From contig JAHBUK010000004.1 in the NCBI GenBank assembly GCA_019638115.1, positions 552,001 to 616,000 of the forward strand: DNA of 64,000 nucleotides, written 5' to 3'. The notes below the pieces were generated by a model that was given only the letters and a program-made list of their open reading frames with translations, searched no databases and had not been told where the DNA came from. Of the stretch, positions 39,209-41,893 are shown piece by piece. This stretch comes from Flavobacteriales bacterium. Lineage in GTDB: Bacteria > Bacteroidota > Bacteroidia > Flavobacteriales_F > PHOS-HE28. The position numbers were made by a program, and so were the translations under genes. Within the stretch, counting starts at the first letter, position 1. Each line of letters starts with the position of its first letter.

Positions 39209-39326
39209 CGATCACCAATTGACGAATGCCCCCCGCATCCTCCGTCGTATGATGTCGATAGCCCGATGACGAAGTAGCCGTCACCAGCTGAAACACATGA
39301 GCGCCCTGCTACCCCCCTCCAGCTTC

Positions 39327-39510
39327 CAACCGGTGACAAGTCGTCACCAGTTGAAACCAGTCATGGTTGGCGATCCAGTCGGTGACAAATCGTCACCGAC
39401 TGAAATGGAGTTCGCCCAACTGGTTACGGATCGTAACCGGTTGAAGCCCCCACAGCACAACTGGTAACAGATCGTTACCAGTTGAGTTGGTTACAACTTG
39501 TAACCAACTC
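39327..39510. repeat. Five-member array of 27-bp dyads, 11-5-11
   Basis: Five dyads at 39327-39353, 39376-39402, 39417-39443, 39458-39484 and 39484-39510, each with 11-bp arms and a 5-bp centre. Consensus: CAACYGGTNAC, N5, GTNACCRGTTG. N is G, G, T, A, T and the other arm changes to match. Three dyads are perfect and two have one mismatch. Starts are spaced 49, 41, 41 and 26 bp. Covariation means the pairing is what is kept. No gene is seen in 39209-39326 or 39511-39580. Confidence 0.85.
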
Positions 39511-39824: not shown

Positions 39825-39855
39825 TTGCAAAATTTAGTATGCACGCATACCTTTA
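39825..39855 (+). promoter_or_regulatory. fadE promoter
   Basis: TTG (39825-39827), 20-bp spacer and TACCTTTA (39848-39855) fit the Bacteroidota -33/-7 pattern. The -7 element shares TAC with the end of the operator palindrome, so bound repressor would block it. Confidence 0.55.
39837..39850. promoter_or_regulatory. Operator palindrome upstream of fadE
   Basis: GTATGCACGCATAC differs by one central base from the palindrome before marR (28790-28803). It overlaps the fadE -7 element. This supports joint control of fadE and marR-fadN by one regulator. Confidence 0.7.
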
Positions 39856-39933: not shown

Positions 39934-41745
39934 ATGGCAACAGAGAGCATCACCAAAGCACTACAAGGCGGCGAATTCCTGATCCGCGAGAGCGACCCGC
40001 AGGACATCTTCATCCCCGAGGAATTCAACGAGGAGCAACGCATGATCGCGCAGAGCTCCTTGGAGTTCCTGGAGCAGCATGTGTGGCCCAACCTGGACCG
40101 GATCGACAGCATGGAAGAAGGCCTGATGCCGAGCCTGCTGGATACGGCCGGCGAGCTGGGATTGCTGGGCATCAGCGTGCCCGAGGAGTACGGCGGCTTC
40201 GGCAAGGATTTCCTGACGGGCATGCTGGTGACCGAGGTGACCGGCGCGGGGCACAGCTTCAGCGTGGCCATTGCGGCGCACACGGGCATCGGCACCCTGC
40301 CCACGCTCTACTACGGCACGGAGGAGCAGAAGAAGAAATATGTGCCCAAGCTGGCCACCGGCGAATGGAAGGCCTGCTACTGCCTTACGGAACCCAGCAG
40401 CGGAAGCGATGCCAACAGCGGCAAGACGCGCGCGGTGTTGAGCGACGATGGCAAGCACTACATCCTGAACGGGCAGAAGATGTGGATCACCAACGGCGGT
40501 TTCGCTGACATCTTCACGGTGTTCGCCAAGATCACCGACCCGAAGACCGGCGAGACCGACAAGAACCTCACGGCCTTCATCGTGGAGAAGGACTTCGGGG
40601 GCATCACCTTGAATGCGGAGGAGAAGAAGATGGGCATCAAAGGCAGCAGCACGCGCCAGGTGTTCTTCGAGAACTGCAAGGTGCCGGTGGAGAACCTGCT
40701 GGGGGGACGCGAGAACGGTTTCAAGATCGCGGTGAACATCCTGAACGTGGGCCGCATCAAGCTGGCCGGTGCGGCGTTGGGCGGTGCGAAGAAGAGCGTG
40801 GACATCGCTGTGCAGTATGCCAACGAGCGTATCCAGTTCGGCAAGCCGATCGCAAGCTTCGGCGCCATCCAGCAGAAGCTGGCCGACATGGCCACCTACT
40901 GCTACGCCACTGAGAGCGCCACCTACCGCTGCAGCAGCGATATGGAACGCGCGATCGAGGGACTGAAGGCCGACGGCGCAGACCACGCCACCGCACTGTT
41001 GAAGGGTGTGGAGCAGTACGCTGCTGAAGCCGCCATCCTGAAGGTGGTGGGCAGCGAGTGCCTGGACTTCGTGGTGGACGAAGCAGTGCAGATACACGGC
41101 GGCATGGGCTACAGCGCCGAGAGCAAGATCGAGCGCGCTTACCGCGATAGCCGCATCAACCGGATCTTCGAAGGCACCAACGAGATCAACCGCCTGCTGA
41201 CGGTGGACATGCTGCTGAAGCGCGCCATGAAAGGCCAACTGGACCTGATGGGTCCCGCGAAAGCAGTCGCTGGTGAGCTGATGGGCATCCCCGACTTCAG
41301 CGAGCCGGATGACAGCCTGCTGGCCGCCGAAACGGGCTACGTGAAGAACTTCAAGAAGGCGGTACTGATGACCGCAGGTGGTGCCGCTCAGAAACTCGGA
41401 CTCGCCCTGGGCGATGAGCAGGAGATCGTAATGCATATCGCCGACATGGTGATCGAGACCTACATGGCCGAGAGCACCCTGCTGCGCACGCAGAAGCTGG
41501 TGAGCATGAAGGGCGAAGCCGTATGCGCCGAGCAGATCGCCATGACGCAGTTGTACATCCACGACGCTGCCGACCGCATCCACAAGAGCTGCAAGGAAGC
41601 CGTGAACAGCTTCGCCGATGGCGACGAACGCATGGCGATGCTGATGGGTGCCAAGCGTTTCACCAAAACGCAACCGCTGAACACGACCAAGGTGCGCCGC
41701 GTGGTGGCGAAGAAGATGATCGAGGCGGGGAAGTTGCCGTACTGA
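39934..41745 (+). CDS. fadE: Acyl-CoA dehydrogenase
   Basis: 603 residues, the long class with an extra C-terminal domain as in VLCAD-like and Bacillus FadE-like enzymes. FAD-site segments are CYCLTEPSSGSDANSGKT and KMWITNGGFADIFTVFAK; QFGKPIASFGAIQQKLADMA and QIHGGMGYSAESKIERAYRD follow, and the catalytic Glu is in RIFEGTNEINR (about residue 413). It makes the first double bond in beta-oxidation. It has its own operator-controlled promoter, so it can be expressed despite the accessory block separating it from fadA. Confidence 0.95.
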   Translation: MATESITKALQGGEFLIRESDPQDIFIPEEFNEEQRMIAQSSLEFLEQHVWPNLDRIDSMEEGLMPSLLDTAGELGLLGISVPEEYGGFGKDFLTGMLVTEVTGAGHSFSVAIAAHTGIGTLPTLYYGTEEQKKKYVPKLATGEWKACYCLTEPSSGSDANSGKTRAVLSDDGKHYILNGQKMWITNGGFADIFTVFAKITDPKTGETDKNLTAFIVEKDFGGITLNAEEKKMGIKGSSTRQVFFENCKVPVENLLGGRENGFKIAVNILNVGRIKLAGAALGGAKKSVDIAVQYANERIQFGKPIASFGAIQQKLADMATYCYATESATYRCSSDMERAIEGLKADGADHATALLKGVEQYAAEAAILKVVGSECLDFVVDEAVQIHGGMGYSAESKIERAYRDSRINRIFEGTNEINRLLTVDMLLKRAMKGQLDLMGPAKAVAGELMGIPDFSEPDDSLLAAETGYVKNFKKAVLMTAGGAAQKLGLALGDEQEIVMHIADMVIETYMAESTLLRTQKLVSMKGEAVCAEQIAMTQLYIHDAADRIHKSCKEAVNSFADGDERMAMLMGAKRFTKTQPLNTTKVRRVVAKKMIEAGKLPY

Positions 41746-41855: not shown

Positions 41856-41893
41856 ATGAACAAGGCCGGTGCTTACGTACCGGCCTTGTTCAT
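41856..41893. terminator. 15-bp inverted repeat, bidirectional terminator candidate
   Basis: ATGAACAAGGCCGGT and its exact complement enclose GCTTACGT. It lies 111 bp past the fadE stop and next to the dinD remnant. Confidence 0.55.

Follow-up and report, generated by a model that had tools for sequence, protein, structure and literature searches.

Five conserved dyads beside the relic of a Bro-N gene: predicted operators of a protein family with a putative binding site in its own codons

The window, that is, the whole stretch of DNA analysed here (64,000 nt; Flavobacteriales bacterium, assembly GCA_019638115.1, contig JAHBUK010000004.1, positions 552,001-616,000), contains five 27-bp dyads between the relic of a type A Bro-N gene (hereafter Bro-A) and a gene for an acyl-CoA dehydrogenase, which is itself flanked by two Bro-N gene relics. 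The features, in window coordinates, are the following.

39221-39320, + strand: relic of the 5' end of a Bro-A gene, with promoter region, ATG at 39297 and ~8 codons (MSALLPPS)
39267-39283, + strand: sixth, degenerate half-dyad (TGAC-N9-GTCA), lying between the promoter and the ATG
39327-39353, + strand: dyad unit 1, central base G, stem 10/11 with pair 5 mismatched (C.A)
39376-39402, + strand: dyad unit 2, central base G, perfect (11/11)
39417-39443, + strand: dyad unit 3, central base T, stem 10/11 with pair 5 mismatched (T.G)
39458-39484, + strand: dyad unit 4, central base A, perfect (11/11), the best conserved unit (95%)
39484-39510, + strand: dyad unit 5, central base T, perfect (11/11)
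39934-41745, + strand: acyl-CoA dehydrogenase gene (fadE-like), open frame of 603 aa
41910-42187, - strand: N-terminal relic of a DinD-type Bro-N gene, 75-78% identical over ~250-265 bp to the DinD-type genes L045, L063, L044 and L050
41956-41981, - strand: perfect DinD-type dyad CCATTTTCGTGACATCACGAAAATGG inside the DinD relic, the surrounding 28 bp being 93-96% identical to the dyads of L045, L063, L044 and L050

Three of the five units match the strict frame CAACYGGTNAC-N5-GTNACCRGTTG, and units 2 and 5 deviate from it at the outer bases only. With up to 3 mismatches tolerated, the strict frame had 3 matches in the window compared to 0 in 100 shuffles of the whole window, and it is absent from the 4.06-Mb genome outside the window array. 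A preliminary description of this DNA had reported five dyads at 39327-39510, three of them perfect, with a variable base (G, G, T, A, T) complemented in the other arm; the dyads are indeed present far above chance, the stems count 10, 11, 10, 11 and 11 of 11, and the central base is complemented in every unit. The same description had set the array apart from CRISPR, and rightly so: a CRISPR array consists of near-identical direct repeats with equal, unique spacers, but these units differ and are separated by 22, 14, 14 and 0 bp, units 4 and 5 having one base (39484) in common.

The relic upstream of the array is 81% identical to L021 at 39221-39294, 81% identical to L024 at 39231-39294 and 97% identical to L024 at 39289-39317. 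The promoter and first codons of the Bro-A gene run directly into the array, and the gene body is gone; a similar gene-less fusion was found in G053. We detected no functional Bro-N gene cognate to the array in the genome of the window, where the 5' end alone is left, and the array is therefore an orphan. Only relatives with 52% and 43% identity were found there, of which one is truncated and carries a different site, whereas the other is a Bro-N/Fic fusion that lacks an in-gene dyad (L263, G000:C2:209392-209703).

The position of the array ~420 bp ahead of fadE, together with the presence of a Bro-A gene or array upstream of the same fadE-like gene in G011, G017, G019 and G009, raises the question of whether it has been co-opted as an operator array of fadE, bound by a host regulator; the AACTGGT of the dyads also resembles half of the Escherichia coli FadR site. 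However, the spacing of the dyads is unlike that of FadR sites, and in G048 the same array adjoins other genes, so that the location just ahead of fadE given in the preliminary description holds for the window and not for that genome. Moreover, a separate short dyad (GTATGCACGCATAC, 39837-39850, ~85 bp before fadE), with a similar sequence before fadE in G011 and G009, lies closer to the gene and is possibly its ordinary operator. Co-option by fadE thus appears unlikely. On the other side of the gene, ~115 bp past its end, 41860-41889 form an inverted repeat with a perfect 11-bp stem that resembles a terminator.

In a pattern search of 45 genomes of the genus, 23 contained arrays, single units or copies within genes, so the motif does recur in relatives, a point on which the preliminary description had made its reading depend. 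The complete five-unit array, its types running G, G, T, A, T, was found in five genomes (G000, G009, G044, G048 and G049), and in all but G049 the start-to-start distances are near 49, 41, 41 and 26. Across these five species, the units are 81-95% identical, whereas the identity of the spacers (49-54%) is that of random sequence (52%); conserved inverted repeats separated by diverged spacers are the pattern expected of an operator array. An intact Bro-A gene lies near the array in G044, and in G048 the array starts ~10 bp past the stop codon of an intact gene (L047). These observations bear on the possibility that the array is neutral debris of a decayed gene locus, a reading that shares the origin of the sites with the one we prefer and differs from it on present activity only. 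The deletion of the Bro-A gene body, the lack of a cognate gene in the genome and the DinD relic on the other side of fadE are all compatible with decay. However, the units are conserved while the spacers are random, gene-less arrays included, and the symmetry of the units in gene-less arrays equals that in arrays beside the gene. We regard neutral debris as a tenable account of the present state of the array, with a substantial but less than even chance of being correct.

The agreement between the arms had been taken in the preliminary description as covariation, with pairing maintained rather than sequence. This conclusion did not survive the comparison between species. Each unit retains its own central base in all the species with the full array, the arms of orthologous units are 88-95% identical, and the differences between species are nearly all one-sided, mostly affecting pair 5 on one side at a time. 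Because of this, agreement between the arms does not amount to compensatory change in place, and what is conserved, as read from these sequences, is the identity of the site and not pairing as such.

Intact Bro-A genes contain the same kind of dyad at a fixed place in the Bro-N domain, ~160-190 bases past the start. Searching one genome per species, we confirmed 571 candidate stretches as relatives by tblastn; the 80 that were kept and read span many bacterial phyla and some archaea. Of the 950 stem positions in the 95 genes that have the motif, 887 are complementary, compared to 563±11 in synonymous-codon shuffles that preserve local usage, demonstrating that the in-gene dyad is under constraint at the DNA level. 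The central base is the third, synonymous position of a valine codon and matches the first base of the codon ten bases downstream in 75 of 75 cases. For the DinD type, a pattern that left 12 inner bases free had 15 matches in the genus, all of them complementary inside or nearly so.

The in-gene copies also allow an assessment of the structured RNA that was among the three options offered originally, under which each unit would be an RNA hairpin (a regulatory RNA, an RNase site or a translation brake) with its pairing maintained. Such a role would fit the perfect stems with 5-base loops and the fact that the in-gene copies are transcribed. However, on the coding strand of the 95 copies, A.C mismatches (24) are no rarer than G.T mismatches (14), which argues against an RNA hairpin and, again, against the claim that pairing is what is maintained. 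The one-sided differences between orthologous units point the same way, as does the dependence of the variable base on the residues of a DNA-reading helix described below, and no Rfam family scored above its cut-off, the matches being chance ones to animal microRNA models. We consider a structured RNA very unlikely; of the options offered, it is the protein-binding array that holds up, because the variable base follows the DNA-reading helix as it should in the operator of a dimer.

The intact neighbours of the array are BRO N-terminal domain proteins, scoring above the Bro-N (PF02498) cut-off of 25.6 bits (34.1 bits in G017 and 36.8 bits for the gene in G048), and Bro-A proteins match the PADLOC phage-defence candidate PDC-S13 (6.5e-121). 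Bro-A is a two-domain protein of ~290 aa, and its structural model (mean pLDDT 83.6) has a predicted winged-helix fold in which helix 35-51, preceding the wing, carries residues 40, 43 and 44; the dyad encodes residues 54-64, at the entry to the wing. The best fold match of the model is DdrC of Deinococcus radiodurans (PDB 7UDI, 8U0G, 7QVB), a DNA-binding dimer (Foldseek 1.9e-7; Z 13.1, or 7.3 for the N-terminal domain). A sequence search of the PDB yielded a weak match to DdrC alone, and it was the comparison of folds that made the match plain; the identity is ~15%.

The helix ahead of the dyad has the form xYWyzL, and the triplet xyz (residues 40, 43 and 44) gives the central base of the dyad in 77 of 77 in-gene copies: NKV, TKV and NNV go with T; KNK, KNQ, ARK and NNK with G; KKV with A; and STT and SST with C. 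The truncated L012 (G011), too short for inclusion in this set, is an exception, with KKV and a T-type site. At loci on viral contigs found afterwards, the third helix residue predicts the base (V goes with T, K with G and T with C), a rule that held on about two dozen further loci, none of which were used in making it; three viral-contig genes with the triplet KSV obey it as well, with T. Covariation of the site with recognition-helix residues, which is expected of an operator, is observed in all 77 of these in-gene copies, as it is in the 12 of 12 ORF6N genes considered below.

On a tree built without the helix and dyad columns, we counted ~28 base changes, an approximate figure given that few branches of the tree are well supported, compared to 26-32 for shuffled labels; changes as frequent as under shuffling imply that the type does not follow the descent of the remainder of the protein. 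The independent pairs on the starred branches agree with the code in 7 of 7 cases. With the residue encoded by the right arm set aside, helix positions -3, 0, +3, +4 and +7, which lie on one face of the helix, are the protein columns with the strongest link to the base, and the columns between the helix and the dyad are linked to it only weakly, which argues against mere linkage. Maintenance of the palindrome by template switching was set aside because it fails to predict the coupling to the helix residues.

The same evidence bears on another possibility, namely that the units are single-stranded hairpins or cruciforms recognised by a recombinase, such as a REP-like or IS200/IS605-like target or an attC-like site, and multiplied as a mobile repeat. 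The units do resemble copies of the in-gene segment, and several hairpin-forming units occur at many unrelated loci. But the sites are coupled to the recognition helix in a winged-helix protein, which counts against a recombinase target; in addition, the extra copies remain beside a Bro-N gene or its relic, and the genome of the window has no further occurrence of the frame. We consider this alternative very unlikely as well.

The array and the in-gene dyads together lead to a model that we consider likely to be correct, in which the dyads are double-stranded operators of a dimeric Bro-N winged-helix protein, the gene carries a self-site with a recognition code, and the array in the window has been orphaned. 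From the sequence comparisons, we infer dimer binding, autoregulation and a role of the array, as well as the general character of the gene family as a self-operator with a code. Under this model, the Bro-N protein would bind the site that lies in the codons for its DNA-binding domain, and the bound site would limit transcription of the gene, most likely by a roadblock or looping, regardless of the promoter or operon at which the mobile gene arrives. The central base would be set by recognition-helix residues that share one face, helix and site having switched together many times. In this genus, a cluster of five more sites stands just after the Bro-A gene; in the window, the gene body is deleted, with the promoter, start codon and array left behind, and the orphan array would be either recently stranded or used by the host.

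The composition of the array does not sit easily with this model: the array holds three site types and any one gene has a single type, which counts against a plain autoregulator because such a regulator would not need several types. Sites outside the gene are rare, being present at few of the other loci with the motif that were read, and the Bro-A loci on viral contigs have the in-gene site without arrays. In a Limisphaerales genome, the Bro-A gene is preceded by four dyads whose central bases are G, A, C and T. The degenerate half-dyad of the window has counterparts at the same position ahead of several intact Bro-A genes; since this element is G-like whichever of several types the gene belongs to, it was set aside as an own-type operator.

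Among known systems, lac O2, an intragenic auxiliary operator in lacZ, likewise lies within coding sequence; in Bro-A, the site differs in being located in the codons of the domain that would read it, both changing together. Rickettsia palindromic elements and REP/RAYT repeats are palindromes found inside and between genes, whereas the Bro-A dyads occupy a fixed homologous position and are tied to one protein family and its recognition helix. The controller (C) proteins of restriction-modification (R-M) systems, e.g. C.Csp231I (PMC4321490), and RptR (PMC12255303) are small dimeric regulators that bind palindromes and control their own promoters. They are tied to R-M systems, and Bro-A genes, too, are often found in R-M operons, but their operators lie in promoters, whereas the general site of Bro-A lies inside its own codons. 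Given this location and its two-domain architecture, Bro-A does not belong to the C-protein systems; nor is RptR its counterpart, being a different, 9-kDa protein with a 6-bp site (PMC12255303). A strict motif count for type I R-M neighbours gave 1 of 80, and we therefore relied on a Pfam search of 47 frames adjoining Bro-A genes, several of which proved to be R-M or CRISPR genes, with overlapping counts of 6 for Methylase_S, 6 for Eco57I, 5 for N6_Mtase, 4 for MmeI, 2 for Cas7 and 1 for Cas1. For BRO-family proteins, the papers searched yielded nothing on a self-site within the gene, on a recognition code or on arrays of sites, and a literature search likewise returned no report of palindromes in the genes of ORF6N, DUF1016, Bro-N or DinD proteins. 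As far as these searches reach, a self-site with a code is undescribed.

The proposed function, sequence-specific self-recognition, would provide a testable molecular role for widespread orphan genes (Bro-N, ORF6N and DUF1016) whose listing as phage-defence candidates rests solely on their location within defence systems; PDC families derive from such guilt by embedding (PMC12988326). Natural variation here appears to amount to a protein-DNA recognition code readable from sequence, with matched gene-site pairs for all four central bases, and an operator within codons would let a gene limit itself in any operon. More tentatively, Bro-N, DinD, ORF6N and DUF1016 might be self-targeting mobile regulators that switch helix and target as a small cassette, with mixed-type arrays (G, G, T, A, T in the window; G, A, C, T in a Limisphaerales genome) answering rival alleles and thereby causing type-specific exclusion or cross-immunity, a proposal that we regard as rather doubtful. 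Bro-A is found on few plasmids (13 records).

In ORF6N genes, a dyad lies at LRSQ[I/F][V/A]T, and the synonymous third base of the serine codon follows the helix in 12 of 12 cases: K[VA]LxQ goes with A, [KR]RLxE with G, and one KVLKR with C. Across 395 genomes of the phylum, we counted 37 occurrences of the ORF6N core with two bases left free, and these bases are nearly always complementary. A dyad at about this position, its arms varied, is also present in many DUF1016 genes. In the genome of the window, a DUF1016 gene and an ORF6N gene lie next to each other (L019 3266-4424; G000:C1 ~192265-193420), and both contain an in-gene dyad; between them are three DUF1016-type dyads with different inner triplets, upstream of the DUF1016 gene, and two ORF6N-type dyads.

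Two further observations concern the exchange of sequence around the dyads. In alignment A2 (L106, L130, L131; L119, L128, L143), near-identical C-terminal halves are joined to different helix-plus-dyad modules, which suggests that a specificity cassette has been exchanged between genes; since helix and site lie within ~100 bp, such exchange could add to their coupling. In G011 (L012, 5393-5460), the Bro-A frame ends abruptly after VPSP and is followed by a G-type dyad that is bordered on both sides by inverted copies of the adjoining gene sequence, as if from template switching at the dyad.
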